From: a virus
IMG/VR virus record: IMGVR_UViG_3300017752_000231
Coordinates: 1-20,448 of that record
DNA length: 20,448 nt
Direction: 5' to 3' (one strand)
Position numbers and translations under genes: made by a program. Positions 2 to 17,214 of this stretch are shown one piece after another. Numbering within the stretch: position 1 is the stretch's first letter; the number at the start of each line of letters is the position of its first letter. The notes under the pieces are model-generated. The model made no database searches, had not been told where the DNA came from, and worked only from the letters and a program-made list of their open reading frames with translations.

Positions 2-217
2 AAGGATTTTGGTACTTCTCTGGCACGCTTTAAAGATGGTATAGCAGATGCAGATTTGACACCAGCGCAACAATTAGAATTATATAACAAGTTCAATGAA
101 ACTGAAGCAGGTTCTAATATTAATAATAACGTGAAGTCGCGAAACGTAAACGATGCAATAACAGAAACACATTTACGTTTCTCCAACAGAGGGTTCGATT
201 CAGGGTATTATGGCTAA
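2..217 (+). CDS. gp13: Probable neck protein gp13, C-terminal end (5' partial)
   Basis: An open frame enters from the left edge and ends at TAA 215-217, giving the last 71 residues of a protein that ends in SGYYG. No domain motif can be recognised in the fragment; it is polar and begins with a predicted-helical stretch containing LTPAQQLELYNKFNE. The assignment rests mainly on position: it lies directly before gp14 and overlaps the gp14 ATG by one base (TAATG), and in T4-like phages gp13 is the gene before gp14. gp13 and gp14 together form the neck that closes the filled head and receives the tail. Another structural protein, such as a fibritin-type protein, cannot be excluded. Confidence 0.55.
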   Translation, partial: KDFGTSLARFKDGIADADLTPAQQLELYNKFNETEAGSNINNNVKSRNVNDAITETHLRFSNRGFDSGYYG

Positions 218-1269
218 TGGCAATCAAGAACAACTACTCCGGTTTTACGATAGCGTCTACCACAGACTACAACAACGCTGATAATGATTCAGACTTCGGA
301 GTTAATCTCAATAGATCAATCCAAAAAGTCAATAGTGATTATGCCCTCTCTGCTGGAGTTACAAATACTTATGTTGATGGCTACATCAACCAGTTTGGAG
401 CCTCTGCTCGCTTCTCCACAAACGAACAAAGATTAATTCAAAATATGATTAGAGAGTCTATAAACGTTAACGGTATAACTGTGCGTTATATGCCTCGTTC
501 TTCTCCTTATACTGATGAAGTGTTTAATGAAAGACCTGAAAGTAGATTTCATAGAGGTCTACAAATGGATATGTTATTAGTAGCAGCTGCAGGGTTTGAA
601 GGTGAAGGTGATGTTATGACTACTTACGGAATTGAGTTCCGTGAAGAAGTTATTATGTCTGTTGCTATCAATAATTTTGAAAATTTATACAATTCATTTG
701 ATTCTGATCTTAAAACTAGTGGCGACAGCGAAGATGCTAAAATATTTGCAAGATCGAGACCTTTAGAAGGTGACTTAATTGTAATACCTTTTGGTAGATC
801 TGCACAAAACAAAAATCAATACGTACCTAAAGTATTTGAAATTCTTAGAGTTACAACCTATCATGATGGAGCATTCTTTCAGATAGGAGATAACTATCAG
901 TATAAACTTAGATGTAGATTGTTCGAACTCAGTGGAGAAGACCTTGAATTTAATCCAACAGTTGTGGAATACAATGAAGACGGAACTCAACAAAACCTTA
1001 TCGATTCAGATACAGGACCTATCGCACGAGCCAAGACTGGATTAGAATTAACAGATTCAGAAACTAAAAACTTAAACATTACAGATGACAGTGATGATCA
1101 TTTTGATACTTGGGCTGAAAATAGAGCTATAGAAGAACGCTCTCAGAAAGAAGTTCGATATGATAATAAAGGAGAACCTTTAAAAGAAAAAGCAGATGTA
1201 GTTACAAAAGATTACACAGCAGAAGCGTTTGGATACGCTGGTATAATTAATAGTATAGATGATATCTAA
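217..1269 (+). CDS. gp14: Neck protein gp14 (head completion)
   Basis: This is a homologue of T4 gp14, a head-neck protein needed to stabilise packaged heads and join the tail. It is recognised by the family's core: INVNGITVRYMPR near residues 83-95, GFEGEGDVMTTYGIEFREEV near 126-145, RPLEGDLIVIPFGR near 180-193, and FFQIGDNYQYKLRCRLFELS near 220-239. The gp14 motifs end near residue 250, which is about the full length of T4 gp14 (256 residues). The remaining ~100 residues, acidic and polar, form a C-terminal extension not expected from T4. The gene starts in a TAATG overlap with the preceding gene and ends in a TAATG overlap with gp15, suggesting translational coupling. It carries four DSD tripeptides (see findings). 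Confidence 0.9.
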   Translation: MAIKNNYSGFTIASTTDYNNADNDSDFGVNLNRSIQKVNSDYALSAGVTNTYVDGYINQFGASARFSTNEQRLIQNMIRESINVNGITVRYMPRSSPYTDEVFNERPESRFHRGLQMDMLLVAAAGFEGEGDVMTTYGIEFREEVIMSVAINNFENLYNSFDSDLKTSGDSEDAKIFARSRPLEGDLIVIPFGRSAQNKNQYVPKVFEILRVTTYHDGAFFQIGDNYQYKLRCRLFELSGEDLEFNPTVVEYNEDGTQQNLIDSDTGPIARAKTGLELTDSETKNLNITDDSDDHFDTWAENRAIEERSQKEVRYDNKGEPLKEKADVVTKDYTAEAFGYAGIINSIDDI

Positions 1270-2135
1270 TGATAGGGCAACACTTTTATAATGAAACTAT
1301 AAAAACAGCTGTATCCGTATTTGGTAGTTTGTTTAATAATATAGTTTTAAAGAGAAGAGACGGTAAGTTTCTTCCTGTTCCTATTTCTTATGGACCTAGA
1401 ACTAAATGGATAGAAGCACAAAAACAATTTAAACGTGAAGAAGAAATGTTTGAAAAGCTTTTACCTAGAATGTCTTATGAAATTGTTGCTATGGTTTATG
1501 ATCAAGATCGTAAGATAACAAACAAACAAACTATCATTAGAACACCTGATAGTCTAAGCTTACCAAGACAAAGAGTTCATGCACCTACACCATACAATTT
1601 AGATTTTACTTTGTATCTTACTACTAAAAATTTAAACGATGGTTGGCAAATTATGGAACAAATACTTCCATTTTTTACACCTGCTTATACTGTAAGAGTA
1701 AGAAACTTTCCTTTTGATAATGACTCAGATACACCTATGCCAACTAATGCATATGATATGCCGTTTATATTAACAGCAGCTACTTGGGCTGATGACTGGA
1801 CAGGTGATATAGGTGATAGAAGAATAGTTGAATGGACATTAGAGTTTACTGCTAAAGTGTTTTTCTTTGGTCCTGCTGTTACTACTAATATAATATATGA
1901 CTCTAGAGCTCTTATATCTATGCCTGGAAGAGATTCAGATGGAAATATACCCGAGTTATATACATTAAATAGAGCGTCTAATATAGAAGGATTAGAGACA
2001 GGTTGGGCTAATTTAACTAAGCCTGATTCAGACTCAGTTTTAGATAGCGATTCTAAAGTTAGTCCTACTGTGATTAATCTTTCTGATTCAGACGGTAACA
2101 TTACTAAGATTGTTCGCGATTTAAGCTTAATTTAG
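1269..2135 (+). CDS. gp15: Tail completion / sheath stabiliser protein gp15
   Basis: This is a homologue of T4 gp15, the ring at the head-proximal end of the tail that stabilises the contracted sheath and docks to the neck. Matching features in order are: an N-terminal HFYNETIKTAVSVFGSLFNN (T4: YFYNSSFRRYATLMGDLFSN), VPISYGPRTKW near residues 37-47, a helix ending in LLPRMSYEIV near 64-73, the central IMEQILPFFTP near 128-138, and RRIVEWTLEFTAKVFFFGP near 184-202. Its 288 residues are close to the 272 of T4 gp15. The C-terminal 70 residues are loop-like and hold most of its five DSD tripeptides, including a doubled PDSDSVLDSDS. The ATG overlaps the gp14 stop by one base. Confidence 0.9.
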   Translation: MIGQHFYNETIKTAVSVFGSLFNNIVLKRRDGKFLPVPISYGPRTKWIEAQKQFKREEEMFEKLLPRMSYEIVAMVYDQDRKITNKQTIIRTPDSLSLPRQRVHAPTPYNLDFTLYLTTKNLNDGWQIMEQILPFFTPAYTVRVRNFPFDNDSDTPMPTNAYDMPFILTAATWADDWTGDIGDRRIVEWTLEFTAKVFFFGPAVTTNIIYDSRALISMPGRDSDGNIPELYTLNRASNIEGLETGWANLTKPDSDSVLDSDSKVSPTVINLSDSDGNITKIVRDLSLI

Positions 2136-2149
2136 GATATAAATAGAAT

Positions 2150-3550
2150 ATGGCTTCTAAAGATTTAATTAATTTAGGTACTACACCAGATTCAGGAACA
2201 GGTGATTCAGCTCGTCAAGGCGGGTTAAAAATCAACAACATGTTTGCTGATCTTTATTCTAATTTTGGTGATAACCCAATCGGTAATGATCCAAATAATA
2301 CTTTTTATGGTTATAGAAGACCATTTAAAGATTATGAATACAAAGTAGGTGAATTACATCCAGCTGGTAAATATACTATTGTAAATTTTAAATCTGGTGG
2401 TCCTACAACCCCTAGAGATACTATTAAGAATATGGGATATGGTGTTGATAGTGAGGGTGAGTTTGTTGATAGTAATGCTGACAACATTCCAGATATTTTT
2501 AGAGATAGTGAATGGTATTTTCTTTCTAGAGGAGAAAGAATTACTGCAGACTTAAGAGAAGTATCTCAAGGAAGAACTGTACATTTAGTTTTACCTTTAG
2601 CAAGAGCTGGTGATGTTATTGAAGTTAGAGATTCTTTCTCTTCTTGGCAACATAAAAACATTTCAATTTGGACTACCCCATACGAGTTTAGAAACGTATC
2701 ACAGATTACAGAATGGAAAGCTCATACACCAGAAGCATTTTCTAATTATCCAGATTCAGATGCTGTAGCTTTAACCGATCATTTAAGTGTAAAATATTAC
2801 CCAGTTTATAAAAGAGTAAACTTTAATCATGAAAAATATGATTCAGATATAGCATTAAATTATCCTAAATTAGATCAAAAATTTAATATCAATGATGGTA
2901 AGTCATTTGTTAACTTTAGTACAGCTCAAGATAATACGCTTATTTTTACTTATCAAGGACCAGATTCAGGTTGGGTATTAAGAAGAACTACTCTAATTAG
3001 TACACAACAAATTATGAATGCTAGACAAGACAATTTTGAAGCTGGTGATTGGTTACAATGGAACAAACCTGACTTGACTGTTGCTGGTGAATTAGAACTT
3101 CAAAACGGTCAATACGTTTTACCTGTAGCTCCTTCTGCATTACAAAGTGATATAGACGATGCAGTATCACAACCGGTATTTCAAGTATATAGAAGAATGA
3201 CTGCTAACATGTATGATTCAGAAGCTTTAATTCAAATTAATAGTTTCTTATATGATTACATTAATACAGAACAAGAAACTTCTTCAAATAGAAATACATT
3301 TAAAAGATTAAAAGCTGTATTTGGTAGAGATTCAGATGGTGCCTTTAGTAATTCTCCAGACCTAGATTCTGATGGTCAAGGACGTCCTAAAATTTATAAC
3401 GGTTTTGCAGATGCAACACCTAGTCAAGTGTTTAAACAAGTTACGGTTGGCTCAATAGTTGATCAAACAGGTAATATATTATTAATTACAGATCAGCCAT
3501 TCCCAGGTATGGTTCAATTATTAGTACCAGGAGCAAGAGTAGATGATTGA
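2150..3550 (+). CDS. Virion protein with gp10-like N-terminal domain
   Basis: The first ~175 residues match the N-terminal part of the T4 baseplate wedge protein gp10. INLGTTPDSGTGDSARQGGL corresponds to T4 INIGNVVDDGTGDYLRKGG and is followed by KIN..FADLY; later VHLVLPLARAGDVIEVRDSF (residues 144-163) matches the gp10 segment with INLPKG...VIRARDVF. This module recurs at the base of baseplate and fibre proteins. The remaining ~290 residues are not recognised; the protein is 466 residues against 602 for T4 gp10. AGGA at 2134-2137 lies 12 bases before the ATG, a long spacing. The gene overlaps the next by 8 bases. Residues 107-115 (DSNADNIPD) resemble a calcium-binding loop. It probably acts in the baseplate or as a fibre base; whether it replaces gp10 or is a second copy cannot be told here. 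Confidence 0.7.
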   Translation: MASKDLINLGTTPDSGTGDSARQGGLKINNMFADLYSNFGDNPIGNDPNNTFYGYRRPFKDYEYKVGELHPAGKYTIVNFKSGGPTTPRDTIKNMGYGVDSEGEFVDSNADNIPDIFRDSEWYFLSRGERITADLREVSQGRTVHLVLPLARAGDVIEVRDSFSSWQHKNISIWTTPYEFRNVSQITEWKAHTPEAFSNYPDSDAVALTDHLSVKYYPVYKRVNFNHEKYDSDIALNYPKLDQKFNINDGKSFVNFSTAQDNTLIFTYQGPDSGWVLRRTTLISTQQIMNARQDNFEAGDWLQWNKPDLTVAGELELQNGQYVLPVAPSALQSDIDDAVSQPVFQVYRRMTANMYDSEALIQINSFLYDYINTEQETSSNRNTFKRLKAVFGRDSDGAFSNSPDLDSDGQGRPKIYNGFADATPSQVFKQVTVGSIVDQTGNILLITDQPFPGMVQLLVPGARVDD

Positions 3551-4730
3551 TAGTGATAGCCAAATTCAAAGAGGTTTTGTACAACACCGTAGATCACTTA
3601 CTAATGGTGTAAACGGTGAAGGTCAACCTTTAACAAGTCAAGTGCTTGAGGGTGAGATTGCAATAAATCTTGCAACTAGAAAACTTTATACTAAGCGGCA
3701 AAAATTTAGTACTTTTACTATGAGCAACACAGTAAATGACTTTGAGCAGAATGCTGGTTTTATTCTTGACTTTAATAATTTTAGTTATGACTCTGACTCT
3801 ATAAACATTTCATATGCTATTAATGGAAACGCAAAAACATTAGTGCTAGATTCTGATAGTAATTTAGCTTCTATTATTTTACAAGTAAAAAATGCTGCTA
3901 TAGCAGAAGTTGGAGCTGCACAAGTTGCGACTACAGATACTTCTGTAACATTTTTTATGACTACTGGAACTTCATCTATTACGTTTAGCTCTGACTTTGT
4001 ACGCTTTATTGACTTTGATTTTAAGCCTGTTTTAAGAGTTGGTTTAAATGCTAGCGCTTCGTTACAAGGTTCCAATGCTAGCACTATTATTGATTTTGAT
4101 TTAGCTACATCTGGTTTTAGAAGAACCCAAGGTAATGGTAGATTAATATCCCATACAGGAGCTACTTTATACCTTAAAGACTTTGCAGGTATTATAGCAG
4201 CAGGTTATAAGATAACTCAAAGAGAGCCTAGAGACGAATACGAAATTATTGAAATTAATAACGTACCAATTGTGTTACCTAAAGCACCAGAAAAAGCTCT
4301 TAACTCAGGCAATTTTTGGATTAGAAATAGAGATTCAGAGTCGGGTAAACTATATTGGTTAGACACTTCAATTACAGATGATTCTGATTTCCAAGTATCG
4401 ATTCGTCAATTAGATTCAGATACCAAAGTAGAAAAAAATGCTGTTGTAGTTGATTCTGATGGTAATGGTAACTTAATGTATGGTGAGTGGAGAGCTATTG
4501 TATCTACTTCGTTGTTAGGTTCAGGCGGAGGTAATACATTTGAAGGTGATGTAACTTTTGCTAATGACGTGACTGTTGATTCAGATCTAACTGTTAAAGG
4601 TGACTTTATTTTTGATGAAAAAAGATTTAACGATACATCGATGTTTACGGTTAAGGACGTCAATAGTAATATTGTTATTTCTGGACACTTATTTCAAATA
4701 GATAGTGATCTTCCCGATCCTGGAATTTAG
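3543..4730 (+). CDS. Tail-fibre-like structural protein
   Basis: I do not recognise the full protein, but it has fibre-type features. LEGEIAINLATRKLYTK (residues 35-51) resembles the GE-x-AIN-x-x-x-x-K-LY-x-K motif common near the N-terminus of phage tail fibres. Near the C-terminus (about 335-358) a short periodic strand pattern, GDVTFANDVTVDSDLTVKGD, looks like a beta-structured trimeric fibre repeat. VDSDGNGNL at about 303-311 resembles an EF-hand-type loop. It holds eight DSD tripeptides in 395 residues, the highest density in the window. The ATG lies inside the end of the previous gene (8-base overlap), so the two are probably co-translated. A baseplate or adhesin role is inferred from sequence style and position. 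Confidence 0.6.
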   Translation: MIDSDSQIQRGFVQHRRSLTNGVNGEGQPLTSQVLEGEIAINLATRKLYTKRQKFSTFTMSNTVNDFEQNAGFILDFNNFSYDSDSINISYAINGNAKTLVLDSDSNLASIILQVKNAAIAEVGAAQVATTDTSVTFFMTTGTSSITFSSDFVRFIDFDFKPVLRVGLNASASLQGSNASTIIDFDLATSGFRRTQGNGRLISHTGATLYLKDFAGIIAAGYKITQREPRDEYEIIEINNVPIVLPKAPEKALNSGNFWIRNRDSESGKLYWLDTSITDDSDFQVSIRQLDSDTKVEKNAVVVDSDGNGNLMYGEWRAIVSTSLLGSGGGNTFEGDVTFANDVTVDSDLTVKGDFIFDEKRFNDTSMFTVKDVNSNIVISGHLFQIDSDLPDPGI

Positions 4731-4741
4731 GGAGTTATATA

Positions 4742-5629
4742 ATGGCAAGACCATTTAAGTTAGACGGTTTTCGCGGAATAATTGAAATGTCAGATGCACA
4801 CCTTGATAGGATGTGTTATTATTTAAGAAAAGCGTATTCAGACCAATTAAATGCTGGCGGTAACGGTAGTGTAAATGTTGGTGGTTCAGGTACAACTATT
4901 GGTTCTATGAGTGATACTAGTAGAACAAAACGAACTAATACTGGATCAAATACACAACCTTATCCAGGTACTGGTACTGAAACAGACTCTACATATTCAT
5001 ATAAACAAGACTTTACGATTCCATCTTCACCTTCAGACACTATATTAAACGATCAAGGTTTTGTTATTCTAGATGGTACATCAGGTGTTATGACTGCAGA
5101 TGAAAATGAAATTATTAATACAGTTATTACACAAACTATTTCAGATATGAGAACCGGTGATGAAGTAGGAACATATAGAGTCGCAACTTCTAATCCTGGC
5201 AATGGTACATGGACTAACAAAGGAACATGGTTTGTAGATACCACTTATTCAGGTACAACAAATTACAAACTGTGGTTAAAAAGATCAATGGCTGTTGAAC
5301 CAGGTACTTATGTTTATCCAATTTGTAAAGATGGAACATCAGGTTTAAAAGAAGTAGATATAGCTGTATCGAGTAACTTAGTGCAAAATATTTTGTTACC
5401 TATACTTACAAGACAGATGCAGCCTAACCTACAATACAACCAACAGCTTATTCAACACACAGGGGTTACTAGAGGTATTATATACGATACAAGATTATCA
5501 GGTACTTCTGAAACACAAAGTAATCCACCAAGTGGTACTGATCCTGGTCCAAGCGATGTGTACAAATCTTTTAGTACACCATCAGGGTCTGCTACATCTC
5601 ATGAAGTACAGTATTTTTATTTAGTTTAG
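4742..5629 (+). CDS. Gly/Ser/Thr-rich putative virion structural protein
   Basis: The family is not identified. The N-terminus (MARPFKLDGFRGIIEMSDAH, then a helical segment to about residue 38) is followed by a Gly/Ser/Thr-rich linker at about 39-85, a beta-rich middle (about 90-205) with many aromatic and Thr residues, a helical stretch QNILLPILTRQMQPNLQYNQ, and a Pro/Gly/Ser-rich tail. Similar N-termini occur in uncharacterised structural proteins of marine T4-like phages, as far as I recall. Unlike its four upstream neighbours it contains no DSD tripeptide. The ribosome binding site GGAG at 4730-4733 overlaps the end of the previous gene and sits 8 bases before the ATG. A fibre or appendage component is plausible. 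Confidence 0.5.
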   Translation: MARPFKLDGFRGIIEMSDAHLDRMCYYLRKAYSDQLNAGGNGSVNVGGSGTTIGSMSDTSRTKRTNTGSNTQPYPGTGTETDSTYSYKQDFTIPSSPSDTILNDQGFVILDGTSGVMTADENEIINTVITQTISDMRTGDEVGTYRVATSNPGNGTWTNKGTWFVDTTYSGTTNYKLWLKRSMAVEPGTYVYPICKDGTSGLKEVDIAVSSNLVQNILLPILTRQMQPNLQYNQQLIQHTGVTRGIIYDTRLSGTSETQSNPPSGTDPGPSDVYKSFSTPSGSATSHEVQYFYLV

Positions 5630-5638
5630 AAGGATATT

Positions 5639-6064
5639 ATGAATATTGCGAATTGTATTTTTATAAGTGAAGATGATGACGAAGTAAAAACTTTAAAATT
5701 ATTTCACGAAGACAACACCTCCGAAATTATTACTTTTAATTTAAACGATGCAAGAGTTTCTAGTATTGTTAGTATGTGTGGTGGTGTAGAAAAAATAGAA
5801 CACAACACTAAAGAGTATAATAAAAAATGGGAAAAAGAAACTCTACTCTATGAAAAGTTTAGAAAACATTTACAACATAATGATGAACTTAGTTTACTTC
5901 TAACTAGAGATTATTCAGCTGAAGAGTTGTTTAATTTAAAGATGTGGGTATTTGATCAACCAGAAGTAGAAAGTTGTAAAGATAGAGAAATGAAGAAAAA
6001 AATTAGAACATCAAAAAGTCTTGTAGAGATTATTGGTGTATATTATCAGATAAAATCCATTTAA
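5639..6064 (+). CDS. Small conserved-type hypothetical protein
   Basis: Function unknown. The 141-residue product is charged and has no signal peptide or membrane segment. It starts with an acidic, probably beta-stranded portion (residues 1-35) and continues with a mostly helical region from about 45 (HNTKEYNKKWEKETLLYEKF) to the end. AAGGA (5630-5634) lies 4 bases before the ATG, and the gene follows the previous one by 9 bases, so it probably belongs to the structural transcript. Its last 35 bases overlap the 3' end of the convergent glycosyltransferase gene. It marks the boundary between the structural module and the accessory island. Confidence 0.5.
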   Translation: MNIANCIFISEDDDEVKTLKLFHEDNTSEIITFNLNDARVSSIVSMCGGVEKIEHNTKEYNKKWEKETLLYEKFRKHLQHNDELSLLLTRDYSAEELFNLKMWVFDQPEVESCKDREMKKKIRTSKSLVEIIGVYYQIKSI

Positions 6065-6878
6065 ACTGTTTGTTAATAAAATGATAAAAATTTGACTCGT
6101 GTTTAGTAAAAACATTCTTACTGTCTAACCCAGTAAGTATAGTATGCCATTTACCGTTTAAATTTTCTATTTGAATATCTTCTTCAGCTATTATGTTAGA
6201 AAGCATAGCTTCATTATTAAGTTTGAATTTTTTACTTAAACTTTCCGGTACATCCTTATTTTTATAAATTTGTTTATAGTTGTTAATAAAGTAATCCAAA
6301 TAATAATTTAATCTTAATTTTTTTATTTGCTTAGCGTTTGAAAATATGACACCAGTGTTGTATTTTTTATAATTAAAATCCCAATTAAATGTATATGATG
6401 CTAAGTATGTAGATAGACATTTATTAATATATGATCTTGAATACAAATCTTTGTCTTTATAAAAATTTAAATATTCTAACAAATCTTCTTTAACATCTTC
6501 AAACCAAATATACATTTTATCGTTGTCTAACTCTTTAAAAATATTATCTGTTGTGTCTAAATAAACATCATGATCTAAATATAAAATATTATCATACTCT
6601 TCTGATAGTTTGTCTAGTAAATGTAACTTATAAAAATTAATTATAACATACTTAGGAATATCAGAATCAAATTGCTTAGAAAAATTATTAAGATCTTCTT
6701 CATCATCAAACATAATAAATTCACAGTTGTTAGTTTTACTGTAACTTAATTTATTAAGTATAAGATGTGATTGATAATAATGTTGCTGGTCTCTAGAAAA
6801 TAAATTTTTGTTATAATCTTCTTTTTCTAATTCACTATCTTCAAGTCTATAATATAAAGAAAAAATTAAGTTGTTCAT
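6030..6878 (-). CDS. GT-A type glycosyltransferase (family-8-like)
   Basis: This probably transfers a sugar from a nucleotide-sugar donor. The evidence is a GT-A signature: EYDNILYLDHDVYLD (residues 94-108), with D102-H-D104 as the metal-binding DxD motif at the end of a hydrophobic strand, and KYNTGVIFSNAK (172-183), equivalent to the FNSGVMLIN-type acceptor-loop motif of GT8-like enzymes. The C-terminal KWHTIL and HESNFYHF segments fit the conserved His region of such enzymes. Lys and Asn are abundant, and there is no signal peptide or membrane helix, so it should be cytoplasmic. It is the last gene of the four-gene minus-strand operon; its start overlaps the methyltransferase by 4 bases (ATGA). 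The acceptor is unknown. Confidence 0.7.
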   Translation of the reverse strand: MNNLIFSLYYRLEDSELEKEDYNKNLFSRDQQHYYQSHLILNKLSYSKTNNCEFIMFDDEEDLNNFSKQFDSDIPKYVIINFYKLHLLDKLSEEYDNILYLDHDVYLDTTDNIFKELDNDKMYIWFEDVKEDLLEYLNFYKDKDLYSRSYINKCLSTYLASYTFNWDFNYKKYNTGVIFSNAKQIKKLRLNYYLDYFINNYKQIYKNKDVPESLSKKFKLNNEAMLSNIIAEEDIQIENLNGKWHTILTGLDSKNVFTKHESNFYHFINKQFKWILSDNIHQ

Positions 6879-7501
6879 TTTCCTATTACCATAAATCTGT
6901 TCATACCATTTGGCAACACTTTTGTACCTTTATACCAGACTCTAGTAATTTTAGCTTGATCAATTAACTCTTCTACATCTCTAACAGTATTAATATGATC
7001 TCTGTATTTTACTTCATCAGTTGATTGTAGTACGTATAAAGGAGTAGTGTTAGTTTGATTTTCAATTCTATCTCTTAACATATGAAAAGGAAACATATGT
7101 TCACATGATGTATTAACAACTAAATCTATCTTACCTTTCCTTACGTGATCTTTGTGTAGATCTTCCATATACAAATCAGAAAATTTAGAAGTGAATTTAT
7201 CTTCTATGTGTCTATTAAATCTTTTACTAATTTTTACAGCATCAGGATCAGTTTCGTAATTACACATAAAATCCGTATAAGAGCTTAACACATCTGCTAA
7301 CACATGACAATACCAACCACCAATAATAACTGTATTTGTAAAATGTAAATTAGTAGTTGATAGCTCATCACCAACCCATTTTTTACTTTGCAGCTGAGAT
7401 ATTTCAAATGAATGCTTTAATCTATCAACTAAAAATGGATGAGATTTAAGAGTTGTGTAGTAAGAACTCATCCAGTTTGAAACAGTATCTATATTTTCCA
7501 A
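6875..7501 (-). CDS. SAM-dependent methyltransferase-like protein
   Basis: This looks like a compact class I methyltransferase. TVIIGGWYCHVLADVLS (residues 57-73) occupies the place of the glycine-rich motif I loop, though it has only two adjacent glycines. The acidic NYETDPDAV (81-89) follows at the usual end of strand 2, where SAM ribose is bound, and KIDLVVNTSCEHM (124-136) is a strand-4 motif seen in small phage methyltransferases. The protein is 208 residues long. The gene overlaps both neighbours (4 and 13 bases) in the glycosyltransferase operon, so a role in methylating the same glycan or its precursor is inferred. The substrate class cannot be read from the sequence. Confidence 0.6.
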   Translation of the reverse strand: MENIDTVSNWMSSYYTTLKSHPFLVDRLKHSFEISQLQSKKWVGDELSTTNLHFTNTVIIGGWYCHVLADVLSSYTDFMCNYETDPDAVKISKRFNRHIEDKFTSKFSDLYMEDLHKDHVRKGKIDLVVNTSCEHMFPFHMLRDRIENQTNTTPLYVLQSTDEVKYRDHINTVRDVEELIDQAKITRVWYKGTKVLPNGMNRFMVIGK

Positions 7502-8202
7502 CGATCTCTTAACTCTCTTATATCAGTCATGTTCTCTAACTCGGTATTATCTATACCGTCATCATATTCAGAGTTATTAAACATACATATTATATGATCT
7601 TCTCTAAATGTTTTTGATTCCATATCATCAGGAAATACATTACCTTTATACCAGCTGTAGGCAACACCTTTTGGAAAGGTATTAAAAAACTCTTTACTGT
7701 ACCATTTATGAATGAGATAATTATCTAAACTAAAATATACAAATGATAAGTATTCCATGTTATTTGTAAATTGATCATAAACTGGTTTACACTGACCTCT
7801 ATTCCATCTTATAAGTGATGAATTATATTTTGTACCTTGGCCATTCTTACCAAAGTTCTTTCTAAAGTTATCTGGATTTTGCCAATAACCTTCAATAAGA
7901 TAAGGTTTATCCATAGGTAAATCCCATAACTTATCTATAGGGTTATGAATAAGAACATCTAAGTCAAAGAATAAAAATTCGTCTCCTTCAAGACCAATCT
8001 TATCTTCGTTAAACAATAATAATTTTTCTACTGTAAAGCAATCATGACCTGCATAGTCGTTAGGAAGAAGAATGTCATAATCGTTAATAGGTTGATCTGT
8101 AACACATACAAACTTGTCGCATTGATCTTTTACTGTGTCATATAACTTAGATTCATACCCATCATACTTATCGCCCCATTTTACACATACTATAGTTTTC
8201 AT
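7489..8202 (-). CDS. GT-A type glycosyltransferase (second copy, divergent)
   Basis: This is a putative glycosyltransferase of 237 residues. The N-terminal strand MKTIVCVKWGDKY begins a GT-A type nucleotide-binding fold. EFLFFDLDVLIHNPID (residues 75-90) carries the DxD motif D80-L-D82 in the same setting as the 6030-6878 gene, and KYNSSLIRWNRG (125-136) is the matching acceptor-side motif. Apart from these motifs the two enzymes differ, so they are not recent duplicates and may add different sugars. No membrane segment is present. The gene overlaps the downstream methyltransferase by 13 bases and the upstream PP-loop gene by 4 bases. Confidence 0.7.
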   Translation of the reverse strand: MKTIVCVKWGDKYDGYESKLYDTVKDQCDKFVCVTDQPINDYDILLPNDYAGHDCFTVEKLLLFNEDKIGLEGDEFLFFDLDVLIHNPIDKLWDLPMDKPYLIEGYWQNPDNFRKNFGKNGQGTKYNSSLIRWNRGQCKPVYDQFTNNMEYLSFVYFSLDNYLIHKWYSKEFFNTFPKGVAYSWYKGNVFPDDMESKTFREDHIICMFNNSEYDDGIDNTELENMTDIRELRDRWKI

Positions 8203-8906
8203 TTTTCACCATAATCATAACAACCAAAAGACCATTTCTTTTCTCTACACCACCAACACACTCTACATGCCTTAGAAAAATAATTTGAAAGATAATTCTT
8301 AGATATGCACGAAGCAGTTATTTCGAATAAATCCATTATACTGTTTTCTAGATAAATTTCTCTTAAAAATCTTTTATCTTTATCATGAAAAGGACACCAA
8401 TAATTATCAAGTACAGCTTTAACATGTGTATTGCCACTTTCTACATCTCTTACGGTTTCTCTATCTTTTAACAAGTTATGTTTTAGAGCTTCTTCATATG
8501 GAGGGTTGGCAGTTTTACCATGTAACAAAAATGTAAATTTGTTTTCATCTTTATTTTTCTGAGTAAATTTATTGTGCCAGTAAGATTTTTCTAGACCTGG
8601 ACCTTCAGAGTCTTTTGTAAAATGACCGGTAATAATATCTTTAATCTCAACATCAGGAAACATATCTCTCATATAAAGAACTATTTCTTTAGCGTTCCAT
8701 ATATTAGTAGGTCTTTCTGTGTCAATTAATGTCTGAGGCTGTACAATACAATCATGCTTTCTAATAGATATCTCTCTACATAACATCCAAAATAATAACG
8801 CTGAGTCTGTACCGCCAGACAAGTTTAGACCAATAGATTTGTGTTCGTGTATTGTAGGATGATCATCCCAGAAGTCAATTGCACCAAATTCATTACTATA
8901 AATCAT
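8199..8906 (-). CDS. PP-loop ATPase, QueC-like (possible 7-deazaguanine/amidotransfer enzyme)
   Basis: GLNLSGGTDSALLFW (residues 26-40) is a clear PP-loop (SGGxDS), which binds ATP for adenylation of a carboxylate or similar group. The C-terminus has C200 and then C214-x2-C217-x2-C220 (KACRVCWWC) followed by REKKWSFG. This matches the four-Cys zinc site of QueC, the 7-cyano-7-deazaguanine synthase, except that the first spacing is 13 residues rather than about 8. No QueD, QueE or FolE partner lies in the window, and its operon partners are glycosyltransferases and a methyltransferase. It may therefore act on a DNA or tRNA base precursor, or be a repurposed PP-loop enzyme. It is first in its operon, 32 bases from a late-promoter octamer. 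Confidence 0.65.
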   Translation of the reverse strand: MIYSNEFGAIDFWDDHPTIHEHKSIGLNLSGGTDSALLFWMLCREISIRKHDCIVQPQTLIDTERPTNIWNAKEIVLYMRDMFPDVEIKDIITGHFTKDSEGPGLEKSYWHNKFTQKNKDENKFTFLLHGKTANPPYEEALKHNLLKDRETVRDVESGNTHVKAVLDNYWCPFHDKDKRFLREIYLENSIMDLFEITASCISKNYLSNYFSKACRVCWWCREKKWSFGCYDYGEK

Positions 8907-8969
8907 TTCGCCAGCTCATCATAAATATCATATAAAATATTTATAATCATTAACGACGGGAGGTTAGCA
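8907..8969. promoter_or_regulatory. Divergent intergenic region with two opposing late promoters
   Basis: This 63-base gap separates the minus-strand PP-loop operon from the plus-strand nitroreductase pair. A perfect T4 late octamer TATAAATA lies on the minus strand at 8938-8945, and CATAAATA, fitting the relaxed NATAAATA form, lies on the plus strand at 8920-8927. ATAAATAT (8921-8928) and ATATTTAT (8937-8944) are a perfect 8-base inverted repeat with an 8-base spacer, so each promoter reads through the other. GGGAGG at 8958-8963 is a strong ribosome binding site 6 bases before the ATG at 8970. The minus-strand gene has only a weak one. Confidence 0.6.
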
Positions 8970-9584
8970 ATGAGTTTTAATAGATTTTTAGAAAAAAGTA
9001 TAACAGCATCACAAAGATGTCAAAGAAACTGGGATTTAGATAAACAAGTACCAGAAGAAGATATCAAGACAATGAAGATATCTGTAACCGAATGTTCATC
9101 AAAACAAAATAGAGTTTTCTATAAAGCAATCTTTATTCAAGATAGAGAAAAGATAGAAGCTATTCATAATGCAACAGATGGTTTTGTTTATAATTTAGAA
9201 ACAGGTGCTTCTACAACTAATCCACAAACACTAGCTAATGTAGTTGTAGCGTTTGTTGAAGACAGAGATCCATCTGAGCCAACTAGGACTACTGAGGAAT
9301 ATAATAACGGAAGAATAAAAGGAGAACTTAAACAGGATGCAGATATTGCATTAGGTGTTGGCTCTGGTTACTTAACATTAACTGCTAATCTTTTAGGTTA
9401 TAAAACTGGATGCTGTCAATGTTTTGATAGAAAAATTGTAGGTGATATTCTTGGTAATGAAAAACCTTTATTGCTTATGGGTGTAGGTTTTCCGGGTAAA
9501 AATAGATCTAGATTAGAACATCACAAAAACCCAGACTTTAGATTTCCGTCTTTTAATAAAAATGTAATTGTTGAAGATATTTAA
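8970..9584 (+). CDS. Nitroreductase-like FMN-dependent oxidoreductase
   Basis: The 204-residue product has the nitroreductase fold pattern. TASQRCQRNWD (residues 12-22) corresponds to the N-terminal SxRxxR-type FMN-phosphate motif, and ECSSKQNRVFYKAIF (41-55) to the Pro/Ser-rich FMN loop. DADIALGVGSGYLTLTANLL (123-142), followed by GYKTGCCQCFD, is the central helix with the GxxTC-type segment, and LLLMGVGFPGKNRSR (167-181) is the closing FMN-binding strand and loop. Such enzymes usually act as dimers using NAD(P)H; the substrate is unknown. Related proteins occur in marine phages. It has a strong GGGAGG ribosome binding site, is probably driven by the CATAAATA late element, and overlaps the following gene by one base (TAATG). 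Confidence 0.75.
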   Translation: MSFNRFLEKSITASQRCQRNWDLDKQVPEEDIKTMKISVTECSSKQNRVFYKAIFIQDREKIEAIHNATDGFVYNLETGASTTNPQTLANVVVAFVEDRDPSEPTRTTEEYNNGRIKGELKQDADIALGVGSGYLTLTANLLGYKTGCCQCFDRKIVGDILGNEKPLLLMGVGFPGKNRSRLEHHKNPDFRFPSFNKNVIVEDI

Positions 9585-10201: not shown

Positions 10202-10637
10202 TAGAGACAGCTTCTTGAATAGATATTTTTTCTACTTCAGGAAGCTCTCTTAATACTCTTTCTGTAGCTACATAACCAAACCATTTGTATTCATAACCAT
10301 ATTTTTGACACGCTATTTTTAGAGCTAGTTTATGTTTTTGATAGTTAATTAAATGCTTATGAGTGTCAGGTAGTATAACTTCTGAAACTCTAGAACCTAT
10401 ATTAATAACTTTCATAGATGGGTTATGCTCAACAAAGTCTTTAAGCAAATGAGTTTGACTATAACCACTACATGCACTATTAATAAAAACATCTACATTT
10501 CTTGAATTGTTAATAATTCTTAATCTGTCTTCTTCTTTATCTATATCGTAACCATTAGATCGGCTAAAACCAATACAGTTGAATCTGTCAAAAATATATT
10601 TAGCTATACCAGCTGTATGACCTGTTATACCTATCAT
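10185..10637 (-). CDS. Short SDR-type NAD(P)-dependent oxidoreductase
   Basis: This is a compact short-chain dehydrogenase/reductase of 150 residues, against about 250 for classical members. It keeps the key motifs: IGITGHTAGIAKYIF (residues 2-16) with the TGxxxGI dinucleotide loop, VDVFINSACSG (48-58) in place of the NNAG strand, S82 in INIGSRVS, and the catalytic Y99-x3-K103 in INYQKHKLALK. It lacks the long C-terminal substrate-binding lobe, so its active site is either open or completed by a partner. It is the last gene of the 14-gene operon and overlaps the radical SAM gene by 4 bases. It could supply a keto/alcohol redox step on a product of the upstream oxygenases. Confidence 0.7.
   Translation of the reverse strand: MIGITGHTAGIAKYIFDRFNCIGFSRSNGYDIDKEEDRLRIINNSRNVDVFINSACSGYSQTHLLKDFVEHNPSMKVINIGSRVSEVILPDTHKHLINYQKHKLALKIACQKYGYEYKWFGYVATERVLRELPEVEKISIQEAVSIILES
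10205..10250 (+). terminator. Imperfect stem-loop after the plus-strand cassette
   Basis: AGCTTCTTGAA (10209-10219) pairs with TTCAGGAAGCT (10236-10246) over 11 positions including one G-U, and three further pairs lie beyond a C-C mismatch; the loop is 16 bases. It begins just after the stop codon at 10199-10201, where a terminator for the plus-strand pair would sit. No U-run follows, and the sequence is also the coding 3' end of the minus-strand SDR gene, so it may be fortuitous. Confidence 0.2.
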
Positions 10638-12028
10638 ACTACTCTATCATATTTCTTTAGCATTTTATACTTCTCTGGATTGGGGTGAGCTTGGACTAAA
10701 TTTTTACTAAACTCTATAAGTTCATACAATTCAAAGAATCTATCTTTTCTATCAATCCAATCTATTCCTAAAGAACTAACAAAATCAGTTTGTTTCTTAT
10801 TCCATTTGTATAATTCAGTCTGATGTATAATATGAGTATTACTCAATAGCTTCATAACATTTAAGTTAACTATAAATTTAGATTTGTGACCAAACCAGTC
10901 ATTTACGTTTTCTAAAAAGTTAACTGTATCTTCATGATCTTCATCTGTTTCAGTAGGGTAACCTACTATCATTAATAAAACAACATCTATATCTCTTTTA
11001 GATAGTTCTCCTAAAGTATAATACATGTCTTGGTTATTAAACTTTTTACCCATGTGATCTCTAACTGATTCTGAACCTGATTCAATTCCTATTTGTAAAT
11101 TAAAACAACCTGATCTTTTAATGTAGTCAAAATCTTCTTTTGACATAGCGTTACTACTTCTACATATAAACTGAGCTGCCCATGGCACGATTCTTATATC
11201 TGGATTGTTCTCATAATACTCAGTCATAAGTCTAGTCCATTTTCTAAACTCTTTCATATTACCGTTGATTAAACTATCAGAGAATAGTATATTATCAGGA
11301 TTATACTTATGTATAATGTCTATCATTTCCTCTGCAATCTTCTCTCCTTTCTTCCATCTAAATTTAGAAAAAAGATTTGGGACATTACAAAACGTACATT
11401 TTCTTACACACCCTCTTGATGCAGTAATAGTAAAATCTCTTTTTTTATTATCACCTCCAACAAACAAAGTGTAGTCAGGTATAGGTAGTTCATCTAAATT
11501 TTCTACTTCGTGTCTTTCAATACCATCAATGCTTTTATGTTCTTCTCCTAGTATTAAACTGTTAAGTGATCCCTCTCCCTCGCCTAATATAAAATGATCT
11601 ATAAGACTATCTTGTTTCCACTTTGGACCTATTTTTGGATTACAACCATATCCACCAGCTACTATTTTAGCATTTGATATACTACGAATGTGTTTACATA
11701 CTATAGGCACAATGTATTCTGAGTTAACACTAAACACACTTATACCAACCCAGTCTGTTTTTATTTCCGTGATGTAACTTTGTAAGTATTCAACAAACTC
11801 AGCTTCTATATCACTTTCAACATCACCAAAGGTTTCACCCCACGTAAGTGCTCTTTCATACCACTCAGCTCCTTTATCTTCGTATATGTCAATGTTCATA
11901 TCATAACATACGACTTCAATATTATCTTTTGTAAGAGTCGGAACTATATGACCTAATGCAGCACTAGGTGCTTTAACACCAGAACCTAAACCTCTAGGTG
12001 GTAAAGCAATTAATGTTATACTACTCAT
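10634..12028 (-). CDS. Cobalamin-binding-domain radical SAM enzyme
   Basis: This is a two-domain enzyme of 464 residues. The N-terminal ~170 residues look like the B12-binding Rossmann domain of class B radical SAM enzymes: a first strand ITLIALPPRGLGSG, then DWVGISVFSVNSEYIVPIV (92-110), AKIVAGGYGCNP (120-131) and DHFILGEGEGSL (144-155). The radical SAM core starts with ASRGCVRKCTFCNVPNLF (203-220), where C207-x3-C211-x2-C214 bind the [4Fe-4S] cluster, and continues with QIGIESGSESVRDHMGK and VGYPTETDEDHEDTV. This family carries out methylation of unactivated carbons and other radical rearrangements. The gene sits between the SDR and an Asp/Asn-hydroxylase-like gene with 4- and 8-base overlaps. 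The substrate is unknown. Confidence 0.85.
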   Translation of the reverse strand: MSSITLIALPPRGLGSGVKAPSAALGHIVPTLTKDNIEVVCYDMNIDIYEDKGAEWYERALTWGETFGDVESDIEAEFVEYLQSYITEIKTDWVGISVFSVNSEYIVPIVCKHIRSISNAKIVAGGYGCNPKIGPKWKQDSLIDHFILGEGEGSLNSLILGEEHKSIDGIERHEVENLDELPIPDYTLFVGGDNKKRDFTITASRGCVRKCTFCNVPNLFSKFRWKKGEKIAEEMIDIIHKYNPDNILFSDSLINGNMKEFRKWTRLMTEYYENNPDIRIVPWAAQFICRSSNAMSKEDFDYIKRSGCFNLQIGIESGSESVRDHMGKKFNNQDMYYTLGELSKRDIDVVLLMIVGYPTETDEDHEDTVNFLENVNDWFGHKSKFIVNLNVMKLLSNTHIIHQTELYKWNKKQTDFVSSLGIDWIDRKDRFFELYELIEFSKNLVQAHPNPEKYKMLKKYDRVV

Positions 12029-12509
12029 TAAAACAACCTACGATGTGTATTCTTTCTTCCCAGGATGCATTTACAGCTGTGTGTTTTTTTGTAGTATCAA
12101 CTATGTAATAACTACCATCAGCTGGATATCTGTTCAATATGTCATCAACTATAATAAAACAATTTTCGTTTGTAACTAATGGTATATGAATTCTTTTAGT
12201 AGGATCATTATGATAAGAATAACAAGATTTGCTTCTAAGATTCATAGCTCTTGTTCTATACATTTCAAGATCTTCTAATATACTTTTTGTGTACGGCATT
12301 TGATCTGGATATGCAAACTTGGTAAAGTCTTGTTCTTTTAACCCTTCTATTGGGTGCCATTGTTTCTTGTTTTCATTCCATGACATAAAGTCAGACCATT
12401 TATTATATTGTTCAGGAAACTGCAATAGTATTTGACCTCTATCTTTGTAAATATAAGTTAAAGGTTCAAGTTCAAAAAGTATTCTTTCAATGTCAATATA
12501 TTCCTTCAT
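12021..12509 (-). CDS. Aspartyl/asparaginyl beta-hydroxylase-like 2OG oxygenase
   Basis: This small 2OG oxygenase of 162 residues has the Asp/Asn-hydroxylase pattern. SYHNDPTKRIHIPLVTNENC (residues 98-117) provides H100-N-D102 and the following R-x-H strand. DGSYYIVDTTKKHTAVNASW (131-150) carries the distal H143, and EERIHIVGCF (151-160) supplies R153 for 2OG binding, ten residues after the His. The active site looks intact. The N-terminal ~85 residues are not recognised. It overlaps the radical SAM gene by 8 bases and the sulfotransferase gene by 17, so all three are probably expressed together. Despite the family name, it may act on a small molecule rather than a protein. Confidence 0.75.
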   Translation of the reverse strand: MKEYIDIERILFELEPLTYIYKDRGQILLQFPEQYNKWSDFMSWNENKKQWHPIEGLKEQDFTKFAYPDQMPYTKSILEDLEMYRTRAMNLRSKSCYSYHNDPTKRIHIPLVTNENCFIIVDDILNRYPADGSYYIVDTTKKHTAVNASWEERIHIVGCFNE

Positions 12510-13092
12510 CTCTCAACTCCTTCGCATACTGCTTAGCTATTTCTTTTACTGTATAAGGATCCTGAAAATCTTGTTCTAGTCTATTAATCCATTTATTAAC
12601 ATGGATATCAAAACCTGTAAATACATTGACATCTGTTTTTTTCTTCCACGGTAAGCATCTATAAGTTTCAAGTTTAGGTTTTAATCCAATCATAGCAGTA
12701 GTTAGTCTACCCATTTGTTCATAAGCTACACTATTAGATATAGGAAATTTTACTTCAAAATCCATTTGCCATACCGGTGAAGCATGAGAATCAACATTGC
12801 AGAGATAAACACAAAGATAGCTTATTAGATGTTCTTCTAAATTTTCTCTTAAAGTTGTAAAGTAAACTTCATCAGTTCTATCAATAATATGTTGAAGATG
12901 AGGTCCGTATAATTTAAACTCTCTATGAGTATGCATCTTCGCTACGCTTTTTTCAGATGCAAACCATTTATCTACACCATTATATTTTAGGTCTTGAACA
13001 AAGTTATTTTTATGTCCGTTTTTTTCCATAAGCAAATCGACAACAGATGTTGTTCCTGTTCTTGGATACCCTATTACTAAAAAGTGTGACAT
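12493..13092 (-). CDS. Sulfotransferase-like protein
   Basis: This is a putative PAPS-dependent sulfotransferase. FLVIGYPRTGTTSVVDLL (residues 4-21) is the 5'-phosphosulfate-binding loop (PRTGTT). SVAKMHTHREF (49-59) resembles the V-x-K-x-H strand carrying a catalytic Lys. EVYFTTLRENLEEHLISYLC (75-94) has R82 and S91 at the spacing of the 3'-phosphate-binding motif. At 199 residues it is shorter than most cytosolic or Stf-type enzymes (250-300). Phage sulfotransferases are uncommon but known; they would use host PAPS to sulfate a sugar, lipid or hydroxylated product. The many hydroxylases around it could create its acceptor hydroxyl group. It overlaps its neighbours by 17 and 16 bases. Confidence 0.75.
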   Translation of the reverse strand: MSHFLVIGYPRTGTTSVVDLLMEKNGHKNNFVQDLKYNGVDKWFASEKSVAKMHTHREFKLYGPHLQHIIDRTDEVYFTTLRENLEEHLISYLCVYLCNVDSHASPVWQMDFEVKFPISNSVAYEQMGRLTTAMIGLKPKLETYRCLPWKKKTDVNVFTGFDIHVNKWINRLEQDFQDPYTVKEIAKQYAKELRDEGIY

Positions 13093-13571
13093 AAACTACC
13101 CTCATAATAATTTTTAAGCACAGTTGTAAAATTTTCATCTATCATAAATTGTAACATTACTCTTTCATCTTCTTGAGTGTTATGTAAGTCATGTAACTTT
13201 CTTACATTAATTATATATGACCCTTTATTATAATCAGTAACACCTATTAAATTTTCACTATCATCATAGAAGTTTGTACCTACTGTAGCATTAATAGGAA
13301 TAGTAATAACAGTATTTCTATTATTTACATCTAAGTCTCTATGTCGATTGATCTTTATACCAGGTTTTTGATATACAAAACAGTATCTACTTTTTACTTT
13401 AAGTTTAGAAAGTAAATGATTTATATCTTCATTATCATCTATTTGCTTAAAGTTATTATTGCAATCGAAAACTTTATCTACTGTAGGAAGAGATTTGAAG
13501 TAATCAAATATTCTTATTTTTTGATCTTTAGTAATATCCATTTCTGGTATGCGCATAAAATAATCATACAT
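13077..13571 (-). CDS. 2OG-Fe(II) oxygenase-like protein
   Basis: This is a 164-residue cupin-fold oxygenase. The iron motif is H77-R-D79 in KINRHRDLDVNN, followed by the strand NTVITIPINATVGTNFYDD. SYIINVRKLHDLHNTQEDER (residues 118-137) gives distal candidates H127 and H130; R137, ten residues after H127, is the likely 2OG ligand, so H127 fits the usual spacing. The active site therefore appears complete. The protein consists of little more than the core fold with a short helical N-terminus. Two nearby Met codons (residues 1 and 6) could start it; the first gives an 8-base overlap with the preceding gene and fits the operon style. Confidence 0.7.
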   Translation of the reverse strand: MYDYFMRIPEMDITKDQKIRIFDYFKSLPTVDKVFDCNNNFKQIDDNEDINHLLSKLKVKSRYCFVYQKPGIKINRHRDLDVNNRNTVITIPINATVGTNFYDDSENLIGVTDYNKGSYIINVRKLHDLHNTQEDERVMLQFMIDENFTTVLKNYYEGSLCHTF

Positions 13572-14184
13572 TTAAATTTGTTTTACCTATGTAATCCTCA
13601 TAACGAAAACTGAATAAAGCTGCTCTTCTCATAATATTATAAGTTTGTACTTGATGTAACCATCCAGTATTAATAAAGTACATATGACCTGGTTTAGTTA
13701 AAAGAGTGTGTACTCTCTGTTTATCTTTAAACTGAAATATACTATCATTATCATTTAAGTTAATTATTGCTCTACACATTACAGATGTATCAGCATCTAT
13801 ATGCCATTTAAAAGTATGATTGGGTTTCATTTCACTTATTCTAAATCTGTAAATATTATTAAACATAGGTAACTGTATAGGGTCTATAATCCAATTATCA
13901 TAAGTAAATTCATCTACTGAATTAGAATCGCTTGTTGTTTGGAGTAATATTTGTCTATACTTATCTTGAACGTTGAACACTTCTTCATAATTACAATGTC
14001 CAGATATAGCGTACTTGTAACTACCAATATCATTTTCTTTATATTTGTCAGCTATAAAATTAAGATGTTTAATTATATCTTGATCGACCATTCCAAGATC
14101 AACAAACGTTTGAAGTTTAGATCTTGATGGACCTGTTCCTTTTACTCTTCTTCTTTTTGTTTTTTCAATTAAACATTCAGTCAT
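13564..14184 (-). CDS. 2OG-Fe(II) oxygenase-like protein
   Basis: This is a 206-residue member of the oxygenase array. The metal motif is H128-I-D130 in NHTFKWHIDADTSVMCRAII, the distal His is H177 in MYFINTGWLHQVQ, and R186/R187 (9-10 residues later) are the 2OG-binding candidates in MRRAALFSF. This resembles the aspartyl/proline-hydroxylase-like proteins common in marine T4-like phages. A basic N-terminus (KTKRRRVKGTGPSRSK, residues 8-23) is unusual in the set and might bind nucleic acid or an anionic polymer. The start codon overlaps the stop of the upstream gene (ATGA, 4 bases), and the end overlaps the next gene by 8 bases. Confidence 0.7.
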   Translation of the reverse strand: MTECLIEKTKRRRVKGTGPSRSKLQTFVDLGMVDQDIIKHLNFIADKYKENDIGSYKYAISGHCNYEEVFNVQDKYRQILLQTTSDSNSVDEFTYDNWIIDPIQLPMFNNIYRFRISEMKPNHTFKWHIDADTSVMCRAIINLNDNDSIFQFKDKQRVHTLLTKPGHMYFINTGWLHQVQTYNIMRRAALFSFRYEDYIGKTNLNV

Positions 14185-14807
14185 AACTCACCTGTCTTTC
14201 TTAATTGTCTCCAAGGCATTTCGAAATTAAAAGGAGTTACCACTTTATCAGACATGTAACTATCTTTTAACATTTGCATTGGTACTATTTGTAAATGAGT
14301 TTTCAATATAAGTCTTTCTTGATCACAATCGTTGTTTACACCATGGGGTTGGTAAGTGTTCAAAAAGCAAGGATTAGTATACTCTCTTCTTTCTAGTAAA
14401 TTAAGATCTTCGTCATACATATCTAACTTAGTTGTACCTCTAAGCGGTATATTAAATGCAGAAAAAGTTCTAAGAGCATGAGCTGTATGAGGTTTTAATG
14501 TACCATAAGGTGGCATCCAGATAAAGGTAAACTTAGTAACGTGTCTTATAGCATCCCAGTCTAAGTTTACATTACATCTTTCACCTAATCTTTTTACTAC
14601 TTCAAAAATTTTACTCCATAGCTCTATATTACAATCATAACAAACATGGTAAATTTTCTGCTCATCATGACCTATACCTATAGTAGAATGGTCCTCAAAA
14701 TGTGGCTGAATTTTATACTTAAAGATTCTATCTAAGATCTTTCTCATTTGCTTATCGTCATGCTTTAACTCAGCAAATCTGTCTTGATACTCATATTCAA
14801 ATTTCAT
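14181..14807 (-). CDS. 2OG-oxygenase fold protein with HTA in place of HxD (halogenase-like site)
   Basis: The fold pattern is that of the neighbouring oxygenases: PPYGTLKPHTAHALRTFSAF (residues 99-118) leading into NIPLRGTTKLDMYDED, then PCFLNTYQPHGVNNDCDQER (146-165) with distal H155 and 2OG-type R165 exactly ten residues later. The proximal motif is H107-T-A109, so the iron-binding carboxylate is missing. In the adjacent gene (14804-15394) the matching segment is KPHID, with the Asp present. Fe/2OG halogenases such as SyrB2 have precisely this Asp-to-Ala change, which opens a site for chloride. An inactive or altered oxygenase is the alternative. The gene overlaps both neighbours by 4 bases. 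Confidence 0.6.
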   Translation of the reverse strand: MKFEYEYQDRFAELKHDDKQMRKILDRIFKYKIQPHFEDHSTIGIGHDEQKIYHVCYDCNIELWSKIFEVVKRLGERCNVNLDWDAIRHVTKFTFIWMPPYGTLKPHTAHALRTFSAFNIPLRGTTKLDMYDEDLNLLERREYTNPCFLNTYQPHGVNNDCDQERLILKTHLQIVPMQMLKDSYMSDKVVTPFNFEMPWRQLRKTGEL

Positions 14808-15394: not shown

Positions 15395-15908
15395 AACTTA
15401 TACTTTCTAATTCTGGTTTATTACCAGTGTAAGTAATATGCTGCCAGCATTGTGCACAATCATGTTCACAAGTCTTAAACATACCACTAGGTACTAACCA
15501 TTCTCTATTTGTTAACAAATTATATTTTTCTGCTGTCTTTTGTATTAACTTTTTTCTTTTCATATATTCGAGACTAACAAACCCTTGATTATAATCTTCT
15601 AACTGCGAGTTAAGTAATTGTACTGCAGGGGTGACTCTATCTAGTTTTCTCCCTGGGTAAATATTATACCATCCAAAATCAAAATATCTTGTAAGTAGTC
15701 TCTGTGTAGAACCAAAATTTTGTACAGTAGCAAAAGCTACATCAGGAATAATATACCACTTACTATATTTTTCATTATTAAAAGGGTCAGTAATGAGAGT
15801 ATCAAACCAGGTAATATTTCTATGACCTTTATCAGCTGTTTGTTTATAAGCCTTATACAATTGTTCTTTAATGATATGTATTTGAGATCTATCTAGCTTT
15901 AACATCAA
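15363..15908 (-). CDS. Unknown protein with C-terminal CX3CX2C motif
   Basis: I do not recognise this 181-residue protein. It is probably mostly alpha/beta, rich in aromatic residues (Tyr, Trp, Phe), with no membrane segment. Near the C-terminus, FKTCEHDCAQCWQHI (residues 144-158) has C147-x3-C151-x2-C154 with His149 and His157, a likely Fe-S or zinc site. The spacing equals the radical SAM cluster motif, but the protein is too short and the motif too late for a radical SAM barrel. No HxD...H oxygenase pattern is visible. It lies between oxygenase genes, with 32- and 20-base overlaps, and so is expressed with them. Start Met1 or Met2 cannot be distinguished. Confidence 0.5.
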   Translation of the reverse strand: MMLKLDRSQIHIIKEQLYKAYKQTADKGHRNITWFDTLITDPFNNEKYSKWYIIPDVAFATVQNFGSTQRLLTRYFDFGWYNIYPGRKLDRVTPAVQLLNSQLEDYNQGFVSLEYMKRKKLIQKTAEKYNLLTNREWLVPSGMFKTCEHDCAQCWQHITYTGNKPELESISYEEWNRKFQP

Positions 15909-17212: not shown

Positions 17213-17214
17213 GA

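Follow-up and report, generated by a model that had tools for sequence, protein, structure and literature searches.

A possible late glycan-decoration cassette beside the tail-fibre genes of a T4-like marine phage

Islands carrying GT8-type glycosyltransferase and radical-SAM (S-adenosylmethionine) genes are already known in marine T4-like phages, according to the pelagimyophage account (PMC7029224), and a late motif, NATAAATA/TATAAATA, has been published for the T4-like cyanophages (PMC2984593). Here we analyse a four-gene cassette in a fragment of a T4-like marine phage taken from IMG/VR (IMGVR_UViG_3300017752_000231); the fragment is 20,448 bases long, and 'the window' refers to all of it. 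The cassette encodes a PP-loop ATPase of the QueC superfamily (PP), two GT-A-like glycosyltransferases (GT1 and GT2) and, between these, a class I SAM-dependent methyltransferase-like protein (MT). It occupies the hypervariable g15-g16 island beside the tail fibres, after the gp15-like and before the gp16/gp17-like genes. The reading that we favour, at slightly less than even confidence, is that it serves late glycan decoration within the tail-fibre (host-recognition) module of the phage.

All four genes lie on the minus strand and run from 8906 to 6030, in the order PP (235 aa, 8199-8906), the GT8-like GT1 (237 aa, 7489-8202), MT (208 aa, with a TTG start, 6875-7501) and GT2 (282 aa, 6030-6878). 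The open reading frame (ORF) listing gives successive overlaps of 4, 13 and 4 bases, which bears out the operon proposed in an earlier, sequence-only reading of this DNA. In the closest relative, L015, MT starts with ATG and the 13-base GT1-MT overlap is identical. No membrane segment is predicted in any of the four proteins. The late-promoter octamer TATAAATA stands at 8938-8945 on the same strand, 31 bases upstream of the PP start codon. Its three copies in the window, against 5.6 expected from shuffles, are not above chance as a count; its placement is nevertheless supported, because the octamer is strongly strand-biased in 1058 upstream regions of related viral loci (50 on the gene strand versus 10 on the opposite one) and because L015 retains it ahead of a different first gene, a radical-SAM gene. 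In the relatives it mostly lies 15-29 bases before the start. Late expression of the cassette, as the sequence-only reading had proposed, is thus a reasonable supposition from the position of the octamer. The divergent neighbour at 8970-9584 resembles Mosig_00093 (27%), which is annotated as a nitroreductase, and in L015 the upstream region between the divergent genes contains a palindromic TATAAATATTTATA that could drive transcription in both directions.

The gene families of the cassette recur together in many other phages, in changing combinations. IMG/VR contains 35 distinct GT1-MT pairs, all of them overlapping, mostly by 7-19 bases, and 39 distinct same-strand MT-GT2 pairs, which also mostly overlap and most commonly do so by 4 bases. 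MT is the immediate neighbour of GT2 in 52 of the 89 distinct loci that carry GT2. Adjacency of PP and MT amounts to 14-16 cases, the count over the 82 distinct PP loci being 16, and a GT1-family gene is found within three genes of PP in 39 of these 82. The four genes are contiguous as PP-MT-GT2-GT1 in L261/L262, a single distant lineage, the order F1-GT1-MT-PP occurs in L232 (F1 being a small protein family discussed below), and in L005 (9893-11308) a single 471-aa ORF fuses a PP-loop domain to a GT1-family domain. In L015, by contrast, no PP homologue is present anywhere in the 34.7-kb record and a radical-SAM gene takes its place; SPASM-type radical-SAM genes either substitute for PP, as there, or come after MT. 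The gene following GT1-MT is Asp/Asn-hydroxylase-like in 14 of 35 loci, and the families associated with the cassette in relatives include carbamoyltransferases, GNAT acetyltransferases and radical-SAM proteins, in line with decoration chemistry. Because of these pair counts and the replacement of PP in L015, we take the core of this mosaic module to be MT as a hub, flanked by GT1 upstream and GT2 downstream, and PP to be one of several exchangeable partners alongside the Asp/Asn-hydroxylase-like and radical-SAM genes. Co-occurrence of the four genes, which had been put forward as a check on the operon, therefore stands at the level of the families but not as a fixed set, PP having been swapped out in the closest relative. 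At L106:8513-10237 and L110:912-2642, the gene that comes after GT1-MT encodes a double-length protein (574-576 aa) that apparently consists of two tandem GT2 domains.

The identification of both GT-A enzymes flanking the methyltransferase agrees with the gene order and with the DxD motifs, which are intact in both window proteins. DxD is present in all 29 of 29 GT1 homologues (76 GT1-related loci were found), and the YLDxD motif of GT2 is invariant in 8 of 8 aligned homologues. The GT8 profile (PF01501) matches 4 of the 29 GT1 homologues, with a best value of 9.4e-4, and neither GT1 nor GT2 of the window. Against PDB profiles, GT1 gives weak matches to 3tzt (E 0.009) and to LgtC (E 0.02), while the similarity of GT2 to LgtC is very weak (E 0.31); together with the YLDxD motif, it makes GT2 a likely GT-A enzyme. 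When the cassette proteins were searched against GenBank phages with tblastn, GT2 alone matched, in the pelagiphage Mosig (Mosig_00091). For MT, the predicted structure (pLDDT 93) has a class I methyltransferase (Rossmann-like) fold, which supports its designation as a predicted methyltransferase and, with it, the earlier assignment of a small SAM methyltransferase. The best fold match is NodS (3ofk, Z 15.8), with many methyltransferases close to it (Z 13.7-15.8 over most of the chain). Spermidine and nicotianamine synthases are also among the matches, the one to nicotianamine synthase being non-discriminating. Homologues of MT on Kiloniellaceae/Rhodospirillaceae chromosomes (L096, L097 and L101) adjoin the SBP_bac_5 and permease genes of an ABC transporter of the peptide type, which hints that the family is not solely phage-borne.

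That PP is a QueC-like ATPase, as first proposed, is supported by the PF06508 (QueC) profile, which matches 19 of 21 family members (best 3.4e-9), and by the predicted structure (pLDDT 89), which has a QueC-like PP-loop fold. The window protein on its own has no PF06508 match, and hhalign of its C-terminal part with Escherichia coli QueC gives E 0.0004 at a probability of 35% only. The structural matches are tied among Cap9 (9nto, Z 14.8), MesJ/TilS (14.3) and QueC (3bl5, 14.1). PP retains SGGTDS and four cysteines with the spacing CX13CX2CX2C; across the family SGGxDS is found in 19 of 21 homologues and [ST][AG]GxDS in 21 of 21, and the four cysteines are invariant, with the QueC-type x8 spacing in 1 of 21 only. 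The motifs YxQxHxxE, VPxRN and YPDC are essential or characteristic for canonical QueC according to a 2026 study (PMC13329287), and none of the three occurs in any of the PP homologues (0/21). Cap9 recognises deazaguanine through a Tyr/Asp pair (YxD, in the YPDC region; PMC13279940, PMC13329287), and this recognition motif is not preserved either, YPDC being missing in 21 of 21. Among the 16 PP-bearing records, all of them fragments, none contains QueD (PF01242), GTP cyclohydrolase I (PF01227) or TGT (PF01702), and the controls matched. Since the three substrate motifs and the queuosine partner genes are missing, PP would, like QatC or WbpG, act on a substrate different from that of QueC, and it is a divergent branch of the QueC superfamily. 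Tandem diverged copies of PP, possibly forming a heterodimer, occur in L001, L004, L006 and L014.

Next to the cassette are genes that many relatives also place there. Convergent with GT2, whose 3' end overlaps it by 35 bases, is the gene for a small F1-family protein (141 aa, 5639-6064, plus strand), similar to members in L017, L019 and L056. It is preceded by a gene for a Ser/Thr-rich fibre-like protein (295 aa, 4742-5629, plus strand) that is homologous to F36 proteins (E 3e-11) and has a Ser plus Thr fraction of 0.237, compared with a median of 0.115 over all ORFs. In many relatives the usual order is large fibre genes, then F2 or F36 (Ser/Thr-rich), then F1 and then GT1-MT, and F1 directly adjoins 18 of 36 GT1-MT pairs. 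We regard the 295-aa protein as a candidate acceptor. Neither NTP_transferase (PF00483) nor a Wzx-type flippase (PF01943) is found in 37 records, and Epimerase (PF01370) is missing from 36 of the 37, the sole match being in Mosig; because these sugar-nucleotide families are missing, the sugar donors should be host-derived. The tripeptide DSD is highly enriched in the proteins encoded at 217-4730, which are gp14-like, gp15-like and fibre-like (21 occurrences versus 1.1 expected, and once elsewhere in the window); the relatives L015 and L067 keep it, whereas S-RIM2 and P-TIM68 lack it or have it no more often than chance predicts. As an acceptor motif it was rejected, since most GT1-MT loci are without DSD, which is thus unlinked to the cassette.

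From the architecture, recurrence and folds that we observe, we infer donor, acceptor, product and timing as follows. The enzymes would be soluble and synthesized late; GT1 and GT2 would build a short glycan from host nucleotide sugars, which MT would cap or edit with a methyl group from SAM. PP would contribute an exchangeable step, the ATP activation of a carboxylate for amidation, with a radical-SAM step in its place in the close relative. The likeliest acceptor would be the neighbouring Ser/Thr-rich fibre protein, and the outcome altered receptor binding or a masked fibre. The sequence-only reading had proposed decoration of the virion, the progeny DNA or the cell surface: both virion and surface are consistent with our results, and the route to DNA through 7-deazaguanine is disfavoured. 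PP-loop activation of a carboxylate, followed by glycosylation and methylation on either of these two targets, would likewise be consistent with them. A more specific version, in which a QueC-fold enzyme without specificity for deazaguanine works by ligation or amidation on a sugar or metabolite that bears a carboxyl group, and GT1, GT2 and MT assemble this compound on the tail fibre as a new type of virion glycosylation, strikes us as rather unlikely as a whole.

Several observations weigh against fibre decoration. Both the glycan and its acceptor are deduced from gene context, and the glycosyltransferase assignment draws on DxD motifs and weak profile matches (E 0.009 to 0.3). F1 lies within three genes of 25 of 36 pairs, when 18.3 would be expected from the loci, a modest excess, and in the window, which has the same neighbours, the cassette runs in the opposite orientation to the fibre genes. 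Hypervariable islands also collect unrelated genes, and the adjacency to fibres may reflect a recombination hotspot. In pelagimyophages, moreover, GT8 genes of such islands, in the host recognition cluster, were inferred to modify the host O-chain (PMC7029224). This last point leads to the most serious competitor, which we hold to be possible at well below even confidence: that the same glycan chemistry is directed at the host during infection and changes its lipopolysaccharide O-chain or some other glycan of its surface, thereby blocking competitor phages that co-infect. The weak similarity of GT1 to LgtC, a lipopolysaccharide galactosyltransferase, and the need for host-supplied sugar donors fit such a role. 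The late promoter position, on the other hand, suits virion production over early exclusion, the four proteins have no membrane segments, the same records have no flippase or sugar-nucleotide genes, and the constant neighbours are fibre genes and F1. The genes of an O-antigen locus are indeed missing, but modifying a pre-existing O-chain would not require them. On balance a fibre target is more likely than host lipopolysaccharide, with the acceptor as the least certain step.

Three further explanations are less likely. Together with the radical-SAM, 2OG-Fe and Asp-hydroxylase-like genes of the island, the cassette might tailor virion proteins or peptides without making a true glycan, PP working in the manner of Cap9 and linking a small carboxylated molecule to an amine. 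The top structural match of PP is indeed Cap9-CdnD with NDG, tied though it is with QueC and MesJ/TilS, and the Asp/Asn-hydroxylase-like genes after GT1-MT and the SPASM-type genes that replace PP or come after MT would suit this chemistry; we nevertheless judge it improbable, given the loss of the Cap9 recognition motif from the PP family and a constant part of the module that consists of DxD glycosyltransferases. Hypermodification of DNA, with the QueC-like protein producing deazaguanine or a base like it for subsequent glycosylation and methylation, would accord with the superfamily fold of PP and with the glycosylated or deazaguanine DNA known in phages. It is extremely improbable in our estimation: the QueC substrate motifs are missing from every homologue, the cassette sits in a fibre module, and the DNA deazaguanine pathway was rejected on the missing motifs and on the lack of partner genes in the 16 PP-bearing fragments. 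A chance accumulation of unrelated auxiliary genes that share no pathway could be imagined at a known hyperplastic site (PMC2984593), where PP has been exchanged in the nearest relative. Recurrence already largely contradicts it: in many phages, at 25-50% identity, the same families adjoin and overlap one another in varying order, and one relative has PP fused to a glycosyltransferase. We consider this explanation very improbable.

The remainder of the window places the cassette in its genomic setting. PHROG matches identify a gp14-like gene (head closure, 217-1269), a gp15-like gene (tail sheath stabilizer, 1269-2135), tail-fibre/baseplate connector genes of 466 and 395 aa (2150-4730, plus strand) and gp16/gp17-like terminase genes (19109-20448). 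Between the fibre/connector and terminase genes is an island of mostly minus-strand genes, which besides the cassette includes a stretch dense in tailoring genes at 10634-19020. Pfam matches there comprise a B12-type radical-SAM gene (10634-12028), three Asp/Asn-hydroxylase-like genes (12021-12509, 14804-15394 and 17215-17868, two of the matches being below the Pfam cut-off), a 2OG-Fe oxygenase gene (15889-16461), a TauD-like gene (16382-17212) and, as a weak match, a fatty-acid desaturase (18505-19020). The protein encoded at 12493-13092, which starts FLVIGYPRTGTTS, resembles by eye a sulfotransferase-type P-loop protein and has no Pfam match.

Direct searches of the four cassette proteins gave no informative match in Pfam, PHROGs or PADLOC, the last without any defence-system match, and NCBIfam matched only MT and PP, weakly. 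The searchable literature yielded no description of a GT1-MT-GT2 core or of a QueC-fold partner lacking the deazaguanine motifs. Marine T4-like phages carry large glycan and tailoring islands that may act on the virion or on the host surface, and the recurring core, with its exchangeable QueC-fold or radical-SAM step, offers a concrete unit that is partly present in a cultured SAR11 phage. If fibres are decorated, it would represent a mechanism for altering receptor binding in ocean phages; if the new type of virion glycosylation were true, a module with swapped parts would be common to very abundant marine T4-like phages. PP also adds to the QueC superfamily a phage branch in which the deazaguanine motifs have been lost.

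Among known systems, PP resembles canonical QueC (PF06508 cluster 1) in SGGxDS, the C-terminal tetracysteine, the conserved Lys region and the fold, and differs in lacking the three motifs and the queuosine neighbours and in a Cys spacing of 13 rather than 8. Cap9 of type IV CBASS is its top structural match (root-mean-square deviation 2.8 over 166 residues); unlike Cap9, PP has lost the CDG-binding Tyr/Asp motif, and the PP-bearing records contain no Cap10-type TGT. The WbpG-type N-sugar amidotransferases, a PF06508 subcluster (PMC13329287), share with PP a PP-loop enzyme, a surface-glycan context and an analogous proposed chemistry, but are reported to have the QueC motifs in reverse order (PMC13329287), whereas the Cys motif of PP is C-terminal as in QueC. 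In the mycobacteriophages Che8 and Rita (Freeman 2023, via PMC11256854), phage glycosyltransferases are reported to glycosylate virion proteins; these are different phages, and the likeness is one of function. In a large island flanked by tail genes, Pelagibacter phage Mosig EXVC030M carries an overlapping MT-GT2 pair (Mosig_00090-00091) with a GT1-like gene after it, but its GT2 is only 27% identical, a carbamoyltransferase heads its cluster and its genome has no PP homologue. The cyanomyophage g15-g18 hyperplastic region (Millard 2009, via PMC2984593), as far as it is described there, matches in genome position and in the late motif TATAAATA and differs in its metabolic content (plastocyanin and 6-phosphogluconate dehydrogenase, also in S-RIM2), the window island carrying glycan and tailoring enzymes instead. 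The pelagimyophage host recognition cluster (Zaragoza-Solas 2020, PMC7029224) lies between VrlC and gp14 rather than after the gp15-like and before the gp16/gp17-like genes, and its description, in the portion consulted, does not name a GT1-MT-GT2/PP module; like the cassette island, it is a hypervariable island in the structural region that combines fibres, GT8-type glycosyltransferases and radical-SAM cassettes.

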